Shown piece by piece: positions 1 through 36,442 of a stretch of 64,000 nucleotides of DNA; positions within the stretch are counted from its first letter, which is position 1; each line of letters opens with the position of its first letter. The stretch spans positions 298,240-362,239 of the IMG/VR virus record IMGVR_UViG_3300028840_002431, one strand, 5' to 3'. Below the pieces are notes generated by a model. That model had not been told where the DNA came from. It did not search any database and saw only the letters and a list, made by a program, of their open reading frames with translations. Both the position numbers and the translations under genes were made by a program. Origin of the DNA: a virus.

Positions 1-123
1 GATGTGTAAGGATTCCAGATACCCCGGCCCCCAATAGCGATCGGGAGGAGGTCCCCGCCATTCTTCAACCCGCGCTTCTCTATGAAACCCCTCAACATAA
101 CGTTTGACGACGTTGTGTTTCAT
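1..123 (-). CDS. Hypothetical protein, N-terminal fragment
   Basis: An ATG at 123-121 overlaps the TGA of the nitrilase gene (ATGA arrangement) and the frame stays open to the window edge, giving 41 residues that begin MKHNVVKRYVEGFHRE. The visible part is basic and aromatic with a Pro-rich stretch (RGPPPDRYWGP). I recognise no family. The 4-nt overlap suggests translational coupling to the upstream amidohydrolase, so it may act in the same pathway. The rest of the gene lies outside the window. Confidence 0.6.
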   Translation of the reverse strand, partial: MKHNVVKRYVEGFHREARVEEWRGPPPDRYWGPGYLESLHI

Positions 124-905
124 GACACTACTCCATAGACGATACAATCTTGGCCCCAGACGAGGCCCTCGCACTGCACTCGGCCGTCCGGATAAATGAT
201 ACAAACCCCGCCGTCCCCGAAATCGTTGTTGGCCTCCACACCGTACCTGTTGGACACAACGAGCACGGTGTTATTCTCTTCCGCGAACTCCATCCAGGCC
301 GTGGCCGGAAACGAACCCTTACCCCAATTCGTGGACAAGGCTACGATGTCGGCATCACCCCTCTCGTAGAAGGACTTCCACTCGTTGTCCTTCTTGTCCC
401 GTACGTCCCGACACAACAACAGGCCGACCTTGTGCTCTTTGAAGAGTTCGGTTTCCCCTGGTTCTCTGATCTTGACGATGGGTGGATTGGCTCTTCCCGG
501 CGTGCTCCACAGAAAGTCGTTTCCGAACCCGTTTATCTTACGGACAGACTCAAACCTACCGTCAGGGCACATGAGGACCTGAGTGTTATGAAGCTTGGCG
601 GTCCCACAGTCTTTCTCGACTAGGCCCCAAACGATATATACCCCGCGTTTGTCCGCTATGGAGTAGAACACGTCCATACTGGAAAGCGGGTCAACTACGT
701 TGGTCGGGTCAAAATCCGTGATGGTCTCTGACAGCGGCTCCGCCTCTGCGAAACTCATCATGGAATACCCGGTCGTAGCGAGTTCCGGCAACACAATGAG
801 TTGTGCCCCGTTCTCGGCGGCCTGATGAACCAGCGGGATCAAGGCCCCGATATTACCTCTACGCTCTCCGAACCGTGGTCGGAATTGAACAGCGGCAACT
901 TTCAC
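120..905 (-). CDS. Nitrilase-superfamily carbon-nitrogen hydrolase
   Basis: 261 aa beginning with GTG (MKVAAVQFRP), the usual first beta strand of the nitrilase fold. The Glu-Lys-Cys catalytic triad is visible: Glu41 in LPELATTGY, Lys123 in SVRKIN, and Cys165 in LLLCRDVRD. Members cleave amide or nitrile C-N bonds; N-carbamoylputrescine amidase, omega-amidase and the glutaminase domain of NAD synthetase all belong here. The length suits a stand-alone amidohydrolase. The substrate cannot be read from sequence. Two AdoMet-decarboxylase homologues elsewhere in the window make N-carbamoylputrescine a reasonable candidate, but that is inference. The gene is last but one of the operon visible here and overlaps the next gene by 4 nt. 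Confidence 0.9.
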   Translation of the reverse strand: MKVAAVQFRPRFGERRGNIGALIPLVHQAAENGAQLIVLPELATTGYSMMSFAEAEPLSETITDFDPTNVVDPLSSMDVFYSIADKRGVYIVWGLVEKDCGTAKLHNTQVLMCPDGRFESVRKINGFGNDFLWSTPGRANPPIVKIREPGETELFKEHKVGLLLCRDVRDKKDNEWKSFYERGDADIVALSTNWGKGSFPATAWMEFAEENNTVLVVSNRYGVEANNDFGDGGVCIIYPDGRVQCEGLVWGQDCIVYGVVS

Positions 906-15239: not shown

Positions 15240-16271
15240 CTATTTCATTTGCGCTTCGGCGGCCCTGAGGGCTTCCATCGCGTTGTCCGGTAAATCCCTC
15301 ATATTCTCGACCAACCAGCCAAGGAGTTTCTTTCCCTTGGCCCGCATACGAGTAAGGTTCTTCTTCGAGCCACCGTAGTAATAAGTGCCAAAAACAGCGT
15401 TCGGGAGCCGTTTCTTCTTGGCTAACTCCTGATCCCTGTCCGAAAGCTCAAAAGGCTTGCCGTTGATTTTCAGGATCAACTTCTCCTCTCGGTAGGAACC
15501 GCCAATCTCCAACTCCACGACCTGTTTGCGCCCGGCGACCGACGGGTCGGTTCCGGACACCTGACCGCTGTTCACGAGCCAGTGTTTGATGGAGGTCTCG
15601 GACCCTGTCGGCAGACGGTCATCGAGACGCCAGTCCTTGGCGTCTATAACCTTGGAATTGAAACGGCCTTTGAACCCGACAGCCTTGAGCGCCTTGACCA
15701 CGTTCCCATAGAGCCACCGGGGTTGGGTGCCCTCGTCCTTCTTGATCGGAAACTCAATCGACTTCACAGTCCAGATGTCTTCGTTGAAGGTGCCCCCGAT
15801 GTAGAAGTCCTGACGGTAGTAGTTGTGAGCGGCTACAAAGACGTGCTGTCGGTCTGTACGGCCATAGGCGACGAAGGTCCGATTACTCTGACTGGACTCG
15901 TCTGAGGACCACGAGGTTCCCCGTTGGGTTGGGGTAACAAACAACCAGTCAACACCTGAGGGTATACCAGCCTTGGACTTTGCCTCGTCGAACGTGACCT
16001 CCTTCTTCTCAGGAGGTTCGTACTTGGGTCTCGACGGAGCACGCCTGTCATAAGACGGACGTGCTTTGCCTTCCAGGATGTCCTTGGCAACGTTGAGATT
16101 CTCCATCTCTTTCGCGTCACCACCGGGCCTGTCCGGGTGAAGTTTCAGAGCGAGTTCCCGGTAGGCTTCTTTGATATCGCGGTCGCTCGGAGTGCTGTCA
16201 GGAGGGAAGCCAAGAACCTCCTTGGCCTCGGCCATCGACATCGCGGTTAGTAGAAAGGCGTAGCGGTCCAT
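15240..16271 (-). CDS. J-domain (DnaJ-like) protein
   Basis: 343 aa. Residues ~14-80 are a J-domain (EVLGFPPDSTPSDRDIKEAYRELALKLHPD) with the diagnostic HPD triad at 45-47. A short basic linker and a ~250-residue C-terminal domain follow, with no zinc-finger or canonical DnaJ substrate domains. That part is rich in Trp/Tyr strands (TFVAYGRTDRQHVFVAAHNYY) and has a conserved-looking basic end. J-domains stimulate Hsp70 ATPases, so it may recruit host DnaK to phage replication or assembly complexes; this is inference. AAGG lies just upstream of its ATG. Confidence 0.88.
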   Translation of the reverse strand: MDRYAFLLTAMSMAEAKEVLGFPPDSTPSDRDIKEAYRELALKLHPDRPGGDAKEMENLNVAKDILEGKARPSYDRRAPSRPKYEPPEKKEVTFDEAKSKAGIPSGVDWLFVTPTQRGTSWSSDESSQSNRTFVAYGRTDRQHVFVAAHNYYRQDFYIGGTFNEDIWTVKSIEFPIKKDEGTQPRWLYGNVVKALKAVGFKGRFNSKVIDAKDWRLDDRLPTGSETSIKHWLVNSGQVSGTDPSVAGRKQVVELEIGGSYREEKLILKINGKPFELSDRDQELAKKKRLPNAVFGTYYYGGSKKNLTRMRAKGKKLLGWLVENMRDLPDNAMEALRAAEAQMK

Positions 16272-16298: not shown

Positions 16299-16739
16299 TT
16301 ATGTCACGTACAGGCTTCTAACGTCAGCTTCCGCGCCCTTCTTACGGTAGATGATATTAACACTGGCCGATTTGACACCAAGGCGTCTACAGATAGCGTC
16401 TATCACCACATGGGGCAGATACGTCCCACATGAGAAAACGTCCATGCTAAAGAAGCTCTGGAGCGGCCACGCATGAATACTGACGTGGCTTTTGTTGATC
16501 ACACAAAAGCTCGTGATCCCGCCCTCGTCATGGAACTCCCCGCTCTCCCGAGACCGACGTAGGATTCCAGGATCGAGCGGCACTTCTACGAACTCAGGCC
16601 CGGCTAGAATCTTAGCGTCCAGGATCTTGATCACACTCTCAAAAAGCGCTGTTAGCTTGTCCTTCTCGAAGACAGACGGGTCCTTAACATAAGCGTCCAG
16701 GGTGACGTGTATACCGGCACTTTGGATTGGCGGAGCCAT
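16299..16739 (-). CDS. Diverged S-adenosylmethionine decarboxylase (SpeD) homologue
   Basis: 146 aa with the bacterial SpeD fold pattern: an N-terminal strand AGIHVTLDAYV, then GGITSFCVINKSHVSIHAWP and MDVFSCG. The pyruvoyl-forming Ser is Ser84 and the processing/catalytic His89 and Cys104 are present. The residue before the Ser is Lys instead of Glu (canonical ESH), and WPE is WPL. The enzyme should still self-cleave to create a pyruvoyl cofactor. SpeD homologues are known to have evolved into arginine or ornithine decarboxylases, so its substrate may not be AdoMet. It is flanked by the J-domain gene and an exported protein gene. Confidence 0.85.
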   Translation of the reverse strand: MAPPIQSAGIHVTLDAYVKDPSVFEKDKLTALFESVIKILDAKILAGPEFVEVPLDPGILRRSRESGEFHDEGGITSFCVINKSHVSIHAWPLQSFFSMDVFSCGTYLPHVVIDAICRRLGVKSASVNIIYRKKGAEADVRSLYVT

Positions 16740-23037: not shown

Positions 23038-23214
23038 GTCTTTTTACCTTCTGATGTGATCCCGGAAGTGATCCCGTTCAAAAAGGGTGGGCTTATAAGG
23101 ACATTTGGAACAAACGACGACCGCCAGCGCCCCCTGGTACACCACCCCCAGAAGTGTTATCTTTGGAAAGTAGAATTTCTCTTGAATTTCGCCCTTCCCA
23201 TCAGTAGTCCGAAT
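23038..23214. promoter_or_regulatory. Divergent intergenic region, likely promoters
   Basis: This 177-nt gap between the minus-strand giant virion gene and the plus-strand lipoprotein gene is the largest in the window. It must hold the lipoprotein promoter and could hold one for the minus strand. A direct repeat GTGATCCCG occurs at 23056-23064 and 23068-23076, 12 nt apart (about one helical turn), as for an operator. A TAGAAT at 23171 could be a -10 box, but no good -35 is seen. No terminator hairpin is evident. Confidence 0.35.
23056..23076. repeat. 9-bp direct repeat, operator-like
   Basis: GTGATCCCG is repeated exactly with a 12-bp period in the divergent intergenic region. Spacing near one DNA turn suits a dimeric or side-by-side regulator site. 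It lies close to the start of the minus-strand gene. A chance repeat cannot be excluded. Confidence 0.3.
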
Positions 23215-25539
23215 ATGGAAAGGTTTTTACTTCTAACCCTCATTCTGGCGGCGGCTTGTGGTTCTAACCCCGCCTCAACTGACGACCCCAACCCGGTCGA
23301 ATTACCACCCACTGTTATAAACAGTGATGCTGGAATTCCCGACGCAGAAGAGCCTCCCGCCCCTGATGGCGGCCCTCCCGTTGTGGATTCCGGCCCTCCA
23401 ATTCAGGACGGCGGTCAACCACCCGTTGAAGACGCTTCCGACGCGGCCACAGAGCCTATAGACGCCGGAAACCTCGATTCTGGAGCGGATGCCGGGGATT
23501 CCGGCATCCCGGACACCGGCTCTGACGCCAGCGACAGCGGAACTGACGGCGGCTCTCCGGAGTGTACGAGCGGTACGAAGAAATGCGTCGCTCTAACGGT
23601 CCACGAGTGTGTAGACGAAACCTGGACAGAGCAGAACACTTGCCCTTACATCTGCGACAACGGGACATGCAAAGGAGTCTGCGAACCCGGCGACACCCGT
23701 TGCGACGGCAAGGACTCCCAGGAATGCGGGGCCGACGGCAAGTGGGTGACGACAACCACTTGCCCCTACATATGTTCAGGAGACGGAGACTGTATGGGTA
23801 GTTGCGCCCCGAATGATAAGGACTGCGACGGCCTCGTTCCGCGAACATGCGGGGCCGACGGCGAATGGGACAATGGTTCGGCCTGTCCTTACGTTTGCTC
23901 TGGTGGTGATTGTACCGGGGTCTGCGTCCCTACCACTAACCGCTGCGACGGGAATAAATCCCAGACGTGTAACGCGGCCGGTCAGTGGACTACGAACCAA
24001 ACATGCCCCTACCTTTGCACCGGGGCCGGAAACTGTACCGGGGAGTGCTCCCCAACCTCCAAACGGTGTGATGATCTGACGCCACAGACGTGCGACGCCA
24101 ACGGCTTCTGGCAAAGCGGCTCTGACTGTCCTTACGTTTGCGACGGCGGTGACTGCACTGGCGTTTGTGTACCTGAGACCGATCGCTGCGACGGAAGAGA
24201 CTCGCAGACTTGTAACGCTTCTGGTCAATGGCAATCGACCCGAACCTGTCCTTACGTCTGCACCGGAGAAGGTGACTGTACCGGCGAGTGCTTCCCCGAC
24301 ACCAAGAGTTGCCAGGGAGACGTGCCTAGAACATGTAACGACCAAGGGGAGTGGGTAGAAGGTTCCGAATGCGAGTTCGTTTGCATGGGCGGTAACTGTA
24401 TGGGTGTCTGCGAACCCGGCGACACCATGTGCCAAGGCGAACAAATCCGGACTTGTACGGCGGTGGGGCAGTGGGGTGGCCCCGGCAACTGTGACGCCGT
24501 ACCAGGAGCCGATTCATATTGCGACGCCGGGTCCTGTACTTACGCTTGCGACCTCGATTACGACGACTGTGACGGCAACACCGATAACGGTTGTGAAGTC
24601 AATCTTAGCACCGACACCGACCATTGCGGAAGCTGTGACAATTACTGTTGCGGCGGGACCTGTACCGACGGGGCTTGTGGCGTCAACGTTACCGGCCTCT
24701 ACGGCAACTACGAGGTCGATGACGAGAACCTCTACTGGGTAGAGGGGCGGGACCTAAACCGACGCTCGCGGACGGGGAATGGTAGCGACGCCACGACGAT
24801 GAACACGCTGCCCGCTGGTAACATCGACGATATCGACTCGAACGGGACCTTGATCTTCTGGACCCAAGACGCCGACACGGACAGCGGCCTGTACGCCATG
24901 CCGGTCGAAGGCGGCGACATCGTGAAGTACAACAGTAGCGCCAAGGATGACGAGCTTGTTCTTGGACCTGACCGGGCTTTGTACCATGTCAGTGGCGGCA
25001 ATTGGGTTGGCTACGAGCTTATCGATGAACCCTACCAGAGTGCTGGCGGAGCGGGATTCGACCAACAACCCACCTATTATGTCTCGGACGGCACCTATAT
25101 GTACGTCGCATCCGGCTCTCTACAGCCGTTGCAGCGGTACCAATACACCTTCCCTCAGACGAAAGACGACTTCGTCACCTCAGAGGCATCCAACTACGAG
25201 TTCGGCCGGTTGGCCATCGACTCGACCAACCTCTACTACATCTTCTTCAACGCCATTACCCCGTCGGAGAACGGCGTCTGGAAGAAGCCCCTGAGCGGCG
25301 GAAGTCCTACTCAACTGGCGGCTGTGCCCAACGTCTGGTCGATCGCCACTGACGGCGAGTACGTCTACTACGCGGAACACGTCGGGTCGGGTAACATGAA
25401 CATCCAACGAGTCCCTGTAGGGGGCGGCGACTCGGAACTCCTGGTCAACCGTGCGTCGATCTTCGATATCAAACTGGCCGGTGGCTGCGTCTACTGGAAC
25501 GAGTACGGACAGGTCCACGCCATCTCTGGCGCACCTTAA
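23215..25539 (+). CDS. Myxobacterial-type Cys-repeat surface lipoprotein
   Basis: 774 aa, the only plus-strand gene. I start at ATG 23215 because it opens a lipoprotein signal peptide (MERFLLLTLILAAAC); a GTG at 23056 would bury it. After the lipidated Cys comes ~110 residues of Asp/Pro/Gly linker, then eight tandem ~40-residue six-Cys repeats ending CPYVC..G.CTGVC, a GCEVNL...HCGSCDNYCC motif, and a ~280-residue domain with beta-propeller-like repeats (DGEYVYYAEH, NLYYIFFN). Such architecture is known from myxobacterial envelope lipoproteins. In a phage it is probably an expressed cargo gene altering the host surface, for example blocking superinfection. No clear ribosome site precedes ATG. 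Confidence 0.85.
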   Translation: MERFLLLTLILAAACGSNPASTDDPNPVELPPTVINSDAGIPDAEEPPAPDGGPPVVDSGPPIQDGGQPPVEDASDAATEPIDAGNLDSGADAGDSGIPDTGSDASDSGTDGGSPECTSGTKKCVALTVHECVDETWTEQNTCPYICDNGTCKGVCEPGDTRCDGKDSQECGADGKWVTTTTCPYICSGDGDCMGSCAPNDKDCDGLVPRTCGADGEWDNGSACPYVCSGGDCTGVCVPTTNRCDGNKSQTCNAAGQWTTNQTCPYLCTGAGNCTGECSPTSKRCDDLTPQTCDANGFWQSGSDCPYVCDGGDCTGVCVPETDRCDGRDSQTCNASGQWQSTRTCPYVCTGEGDCTGECFPDTKSCQGDVPRTCNDQGEWVEGSECEFVCMGGNCMGVCEPGDTMCQGEQIRTCTAVGQWGGPGNCDAVPGADSYCDAGSCTYACDLDYDDCDGNTDNGCEVNLSTDTDHCGSCDNYCCGGTCTDGACGVNVTGLYGNYEVDDENLYWVEGRDLNRRSRTGNGSDATTMNTLPAGNIDDIDSNGTLIFWTQDADTDSGLYAMPVEGGDIVKYNSSAKDDELVLGPDRALYHVSGGNWVGYELIDEPYQSAGGAGFDQQPTYYVSDGTYMYVASGSLQPLQRYQYTFPQTKDDFVTSEASNYEFGRLAIDSTNLYYIFFNAITPSENGVWKKPLSGGSPTQLAAVPNVWSIATDGEYVYYAEHVGSGNMNIQRVPVGGGDSELLVNRASIFDIKLAGGCVYWNEYGQVHAISGAP
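23563..24546 (+). repeat. Eight tandem six-Cys repeats in lipoprotein
   Basis: Eight copies of 38-46 codons with spacing C-x6-C-x7-C-x10-C-x3-C-x4/5-C, for example CVPTTNRCDGNKSQTCNAAG. They alternate between two types: copies after a GVC ending have (K/R)DSQTC or NKSQTC, copies after GEC or GSC have (V/T)P(R/Q)TC. This implies growth by duplication of a two-repeat unit. The eighth copy is degenerate and lacks CPYVC. Confidence 0.9.
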
Positions 25540-36013: not shown

Positions 36014-36442
36014 CTACTTAAGACGCGGCCGGAACCGGCACGGGGCGTCCGAGAGAGACCTCCTAACATGGTCCTGTAGTTGCATCGCCATTTGGGCCTT
36101 CAAAAGGCCACGATCAACGCGAATCATCTCGTACCCGGTCGCCTGGAGTCCCACCAAAATAACCTCATGGGCCGCGTCTGGCTCACCCTGGCCGCAAGTA
36201 TAAAAGTCTACCGTGGCGTACCCGTGCTCTGGCCATGTGTGGACGGAGAGGTGCGACTCCTCAATGACCACGACGCCGGTCACTCCCTGAGGCTCGAAAG
36301 GGCGGAATATGGAATCTACAATTCGGGTGTTAGCCGCGTAAGCCGCCCGCATGAGGAGCGTTTGTATCTCTGACACATCGTCGAGTATAGATTGATTGCA
36401 CCCCCAGTATTCAACCAAGAGATGTCTACCCCGTGTGTCCAA
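36014..36442 (-). CDS. speD: S-adenosylmethionine decarboxylase proenzyme, canonical
   Basis: 142 aa from a TTG with GGAG 6 nt upstream. It carries the classic bacterial SpeD core: GRHLLVEYWGC at the N-terminus and VTGVVVIEESHLSVHTWPEHGYATVDFYTCG. Ser63 forms the pyruvoyl group after cleavage of the Glu62-Ser63 bond; His68 and Cys83 have their expected positions. The product makes decarboxylated AdoMet, the aminopropyl donor for spermidine. It sits between fibre genes, away from the other SpeD homologue. No spermidine synthase lies in the window, so the host would need to provide one. Confidence 0.96.
   Translation of the reverse strand: MDTRGRHLLVEYWGCNQSILDDVSEIQTLLMRAAYAANTRIVDSIFRPFEPQGVTGVVVIEESHLSVHTWPEHGYATVDFYTCGQGEPDAAHEVILVGLQATGYEMIRVDRGLLKAQMAMQLQDHVRRSLSDAPCRFRPRLK

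Follow-up and report, generated by a model that had tools for sequence, protein, structure and literature searches.

Two SpeD homologues in one large phage record

The window, the whole 64,000-nt stretch of DNA that was analysed, spans bases 298240–362239 of a 416,539-bp IMG/VR virus record. It contains two genes of the SpeD family, a variant homologue and a canonical copy. Their positions, and those of the variant residues discussed below, are as follows.

16299..16739, minus strand: variant SpeD homologue, ATG start at 16739, 146 aa, PF02675 match
16518..16529, minus strand: D71-E72-G73-G74, in place of the AdoMetDC Phe-x-Pro-x-Gly loop (by register; codon counting from the ATG at 16739)
16485..16493, minus strand: K83-S84-H85, predicted self-processing site (family alignment; coordinates by codon counting)
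16461..16475, minus strand: H89-A-W-P-L93, with Leu for the ribose-binding Glu of AdoMetDC (alignment; codon counting)
36014..36442, minus strand: canonical class 1b SpeD (AdoMetDC), the companion copy, 142 aa, with ESH and WPE

Residues 11–132 of the variant matched PF02675 (AdoMet_dc) with E=1.4e-15 and 58 bits, against a curated Pfam cut-off of 25. The TIGR03330 AdoMetDC equivalog (cut-off 75.65 bits) was passed by the canonical copy (131.9 bits) and failed by the variant (57.5 bits). When all 416,539 bp of the record were searched with PF02675, these two copies and no third came up.

An earlier, sequence-only reading had described the variant as keeping Ser84, His89 and Cys104 with the motifs KSH and WPL, and the other SpeD as canonical. 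These descriptions were accurate: the three residues were invariant in an 11-sequence family alignment, the two motifs read as described, and the companion has ESH and WPE and passes TIGR03330.

The genes near the variant included those for a phage-type DNA polymerase, a DnaB-like helicase and an SNF2-type helicase. Directly downstream lies a gene for a DnaJ-domain protein (15240–16271, minus strand), found in the same place in records G001, G002 and G003. On the opposite strand, an 827-aa ORF (23056–25539, plus strand) carries repeated Cys-rich units of the form RCDGxxxQTCNxxGxW and is kept in related phages.

Processing residues and substrate pocket of the variant

The AlphaFold2 model of the variant, built with 11 relatives, had a pLDDT of 94.3. 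It matched T. maritima AdoMetDC (1tlu) with a Z of 16.0 and an rmsd of 2.0 Å over 114 residues; for the C-terminal half of human AdoMetDC, Z was 11.7. Because of these matches, the class 1b SpeD fold of the modelled variant is beyond doubt. Close relatives gave dN/dS values of about 0.04–0.14, with dS near saturation. Given the structure match and these values, the ORF is no chance resemblance.

The processing residues S63, H68 and C83 of T. maritima AdoMetDC, whose roles have been described (PMC10407285), correspond to S84, H89 and C104 of the variant. The Ser, His and Cys were invariant in every variant sequence compared, and the −8 position (counting from the Ser) was Thr or Ser. Cleavage is predicted between Lys83 and Ser84, leaving a pyruvoyl group on Ser84.

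The human and the T. maritima AdoMetDC both have F-x-P-x-G-x-S and H-x-x-P-E stretches. The AdoMet-binding residues of the human enzyme include Glu67, Phe223 and Glu247 (PMC3686867). By register, Glu67 would correspond to position −1, Phe223 to the Phe of FxPxGxS, and Glu247 to the Glu of WPE. On this register all three were replaced in the variant, by K83, the DEGG loop and L93, respectively, and the DEGG loop would lie on the partner-subunit side of the active site.

The replacements were uniform. In all 19 variant rows, position −13 was D, position −12 was E or D, GG was present, position −1 was T or K, and position +9 was L or I. The AdoMetDC-side set, also of 19 rows and including several uncharacterised enzymes, had F at −14 in 17, P at −12 in 15, E at −1 in 17, and E at +9 in 18 with one D. 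The same residue set was kept in 11 further variant members (30 relatives in all). Because the changes in the loop, at −1 and at +9 occurred together in all variant members without exception, they are, as far as the alignment goes, one coupled set. We infer a rebuilt adenosine-binding region, equipped with a new acidic pair, in a site whose catalytic region stayed as it was.

Single residues were less informative. E. coli K-12 SpeD reads DKSHICVHTYPE, with K before the processing Ser. KSH, which had been taken as a sign of an altered active site, is thus ordinary and is ruled out as a mark of new function. The phiYS40 SpeD has WID, and the phiN3 SpeD has Val at the Glu of WPE and lacks Trp-Pro. 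Both restored spermidine in E. coli and were reported as real AdoMetDCs (PMC9992855), which rules out the loss of WPE, by itself, as diagnostic of a changed substrate. By analogy, phiN3 suggests that the equivalents of the AdoMet-binding residues may not be strictly required for AdoMetDC activity. Neither KSH nor a missing WPE therefore proves a substrate change. The earlier proposal of a new substrate is thus partly supported, in that the AdoMet-binding residues are changed and the processing residues kept; the two motifs on which it had leaned are indecisive.

Occurrence, pairing and origin

Viral scans with the first family alignment gave 13 and then 20 matches, and further viral matches came from records bearing a CN_hydrolase gene and from a wider alignment. 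One scan of 84,980 genomes, with exact peptide patterns that divergent cellular members would escape, gave one close member in a cellular record, an Acidobacteriota MAG, where it sits on a contig of 17 kb. A second gene of that contig has a match in a phage record of 435 kb (43% over 544 aa). When 297 Acidobacteriota genomes were searched by profile, the same contig came up at 155 bits, the next best match being at 48.7 bits. Because the scans gave only large-phage records and this one MAG contig, the variant clade was nearly phage-only within the genomes searched.

In the 37-kb record G002 (L002, 4995–6239), the variant frame continues into a GIY-YIG endonuclease with NUMOD3, for a total of 415 aa, as might result from the insertion of a homing endonuclease at the variant gene's 3′ end.

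The window also has a divergent CN_hydrolase gene (nitrilase superfamily; 120–905, minus strand), with relatives in many large phages that lack the variant. The gene was present in 7 of 10 variant-bearing phage records. It was considered as a partner gene, possibly AguB, and rejected: 21 of 26 other large-phage records with CN_hydrolase had no variant, and the window protein fell far under the AguB model cut-off.

Both SpeD genes were present in five records (the phage of the window, G001, G002, G003 and G321). The two lie next to each other in G001, where the stop codon of the canonical gene and the start codon of the variant overlap in the sequence ATGA, an arrangement that suggests translational coupling. 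Among the other 17 records, several of which are fragments, the variant was alone in 16, and the remaining one, G020, showed a canonical-type SpeD and no variant. Variant-only records of 211–435 kb exist, so a simple role as subunit of the canonical enzyme does not fit.

A tree of 60 rows was built without proven SpeDC or ODC (ornithine decarboxylase) sequences; a search of the phage collection did not turn up the phage ODCs (LBP, UCP01-04). The variant clade lay on its own side of a branch (91/92), and the pelagiphage ADC (arginine decarboxylase) family formed a group at 95/99. A third group (100/99), beside cellular SpeDs, held the canonical copies from four related phages. A branch of 91/86 divided the AdoMetDC side from the variant clade, the pelagiphage ADC family, phiN3 and speH_1 of Microcystis phage MaAM05. 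The variant clade and the ADC family alone were joined weakly (54/70), with long branches. This tree does not predict the substrate, since phiN3 falls on the variant's side and the 60 rows include no proven SpeDC or ODC.

From their placement in the tree, the two copies in the phage of the window are therefore of separate deep origin. The sequence-only reading was right that one copy is canonical and the other divergent, and the divergent one lies on the tree side of the phage arginine and ornithine decarboxylases, not on the AdoMetDC side. It had also implied that one gene was duplicated and diverged in this phage. This part did not survive, given the separate deep origins and the lack of a canonical copy in most variant records; recent duplication inside the phage is ruled out by the tree.

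Comparison with known SpeD homologues

That SpeD homologues have become arginine or ornithine decarboxylases, as the earlier reading stated, is already published, as is the presence of two SpeDs in one genome (PMC10407285, PMC9992855). The variant shares with class 1b AdoMetDC of T. maritima the fold (Z 16.0) and the processing residues, but falls under the TIGR03330 cut-off and has lost the FxPxG loop, the −1 Glu and the Glu of WPE.

The pelagiphage family includes a proven ADC (HTVC201P, AXH71538), and proven phage ODCs have been called similar to the HTVC201P-family ADC (PMC9992855). With these enzymes (of HTVC201P, and of Lake Baikal and freshwater phages) the variant has in common its carriage by phages, the SpeD fold and Pfam family, the processing Ser, His and Cys, and the tree side. 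Also common are a Thr before the Ser in most members, a Gly-x-Thr loop, MKI-x-GP and SH-xxx-H-x-W. On the other hand, the HTVC201P family has an HKH start, an EGN-K/R-G loop (N at −12), WDE and a Ser–Cys spacing of 22; the variant lacks this signature and has DEGG, WPL/I and a spacing of 20. The HTVC201P-type ADC/ODC family is very common in IMG/VR contigs, with at least 571 relatives among the 600 stretches listed.

SpeDA and SpeDC are bacterial and archaeal SpeD homologues that no longer act as AdoMetDCs; they often stand next to a true SpeD and are sometimes clustered or fused with it (PMC10407285). These are cellular, whereas the variant clade consists of phage records and the one 17-kb MAG contig. 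SpeDA is marked by loss of one AdoMetDC-conserved Pro, at a position that the text does not name (PMC10407285); the variant has lost the Pro of FxPxG and kept that of WP. SpeDC is marked by four residues, Gln, Thr, Phe and Tyr (PMC10407285). If these fall at −5, −1, +4 and two before the Cys, a guess from HTVC201P, the variant protein of the window has C, K, I and F there. Bacterial SpeDs of the HTYPE type were rejected as proxies for SpeDC, since E. coli SpeD itself has HTYPE and one such gene adjoins a SpeE-like gene.

The speH_1 and speH_2 genes of MaAM05 (MW495066) are likewise a divergent and a canonical SpeD side by side in one phage. MaAM05 differs in also having speE and agmatinase, and in its speH_1 the sequences EDKGITG and HSFID stand in place of the DEGGIT and WPL of the variant. 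Its genes speH_2, speH_1, speE and agmatinase (speB) stand in a row (246500–251500), possibly a full arginine-to-spermidine route in one phage.

Proposed function and its rivals

Our preferred reading, to which we give slightly better than an even chance, is that the variant, as companion of a true SpeD, processes itself into a pyruvoyl decarboxylase whose substrate has shifted, probably to ornithine or arginine. The chain would fold as a class 1b protomer and then dimerise. Self-cleavage before Ser84 would be aided by His89, Thr76 and Cys104, and the pyruvoyl group would bind an amino acid through its amino group as a Schiff base. Since the invariant acidic DEGG loop and Leu/Ile stand where AdoMetDC has its adenine-stacking and ribose-binding residues, the most likely substrate is a basic amino acid instead of AdoMet, with ornithine slightly favoured over arginine. 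The product would be putrescine, or agmatine handed to host enzymes. It would enter the pathway that also receives decarboxylated AdoMet from the canonical SpeD of the phage, the spermidine synthase being supplied by the host.

In ten phage records no spermidine synthase scored above the cut-off, the weak SpeE matches in G000 and G003 (16.6 and 18.3 bits) being under it. Nor did the ten records contain agmatinase or arginase, agmatine deiminase, or SpeY/deoxyhypusine synthase. Host enzymes would therefore complete the pathway. The lack of agmatine-handling genes leans slightly toward ornithine over arginine, but for the proven pelagiphage ADC, too, a dependence on host enzymes has been proposed (PMC9992855). 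The pairing has precedents in the clusters of SpeD with SpeDC or SpeDA (PMC10407285) and in MaAM05. Against the preferred reading count the weak join with the ADC family, the report of phiN3, on the same tree side, as an AdoMetDC, the missing ADC-family signature, and the failure to find in the ten records an enzyme that would reveal the step served.

The main rival is a divergent but genuine AdoMetDC that holds AdoMet differently, as phiN3 SpeD apparently does, giving the phage two AdoMetDCs of different regulation or timing. We regard this as a real possibility, though one that falls well short of probable. It is consistent with the restoration of spermidine by phiN3 and phiYS40 (PMC9992855), the former on the tree side of the variant, with KSH in E. 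coli SpeD, and with the many phages in which the variant is the only SpeD found. Against it, every member has jointly lost the adenine loop, the −1 Glu and the +9 Glu and gained an invariant acidic pair; five records already have a real SpeD, and the tree position also argues against it.

A pyruvoyl decarboxylase or lyase acting on another amino acid or on an AdoMet-derived compound, for example in depleting or reworking host metabolites, seems unlikely. The DEGG/WPL signature, which fits neither the ADC family nor canonical AdoMetDC, would suit such an enzyme, but the genetic context points to no other pathway. A weak fold likeness to a phage SAM lyase was set aside as too weak for use, its Z of 6.4 being at the level of unrelated common folds.

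Least probable, and in our view improbable, is that the variant regulates the canonical SpeD or forms heterodimers with it, the shared class 1b sites then giving a mixed dimer with one altered site: the trypanosome prozyme (PMC5201418), the ATGA coupling in G001 and the co-occurrence in five records favour it, but most variant records, including those of 211–435 kb, have no canonical copy, and the processing residues are all invariant, unlike those of prozyme.

What is new is the variant clade with its signature, the fact that it is nearly confined to large phages, and the coupling of the two genes. A nearly phage-only SpeD clade with a sequence signature, not described in the cited SpeD literature, is added to the family. 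More tentatively still, and we hold this to be doubtful, a SpeD lineage with its origin and diversification in large phages may have taken a new substrate through a DEGG and WPL/I pocket that sets it apart from SpeDA and SpeDC as known, the phages combining it with a true SpeD into a polyamine module of two genes. If true, this would be neofunctionalization in phages, against the published view of capture from hosts; Li and colleagues judged a phage origin of substrate-shifted SpeD enzymes unlikely (PMC10407285). The clade makes it testable whether such enzymes can arise in phages, and also how large phages secure both halves of the spermidine supply without a spermidine synthase of their own.
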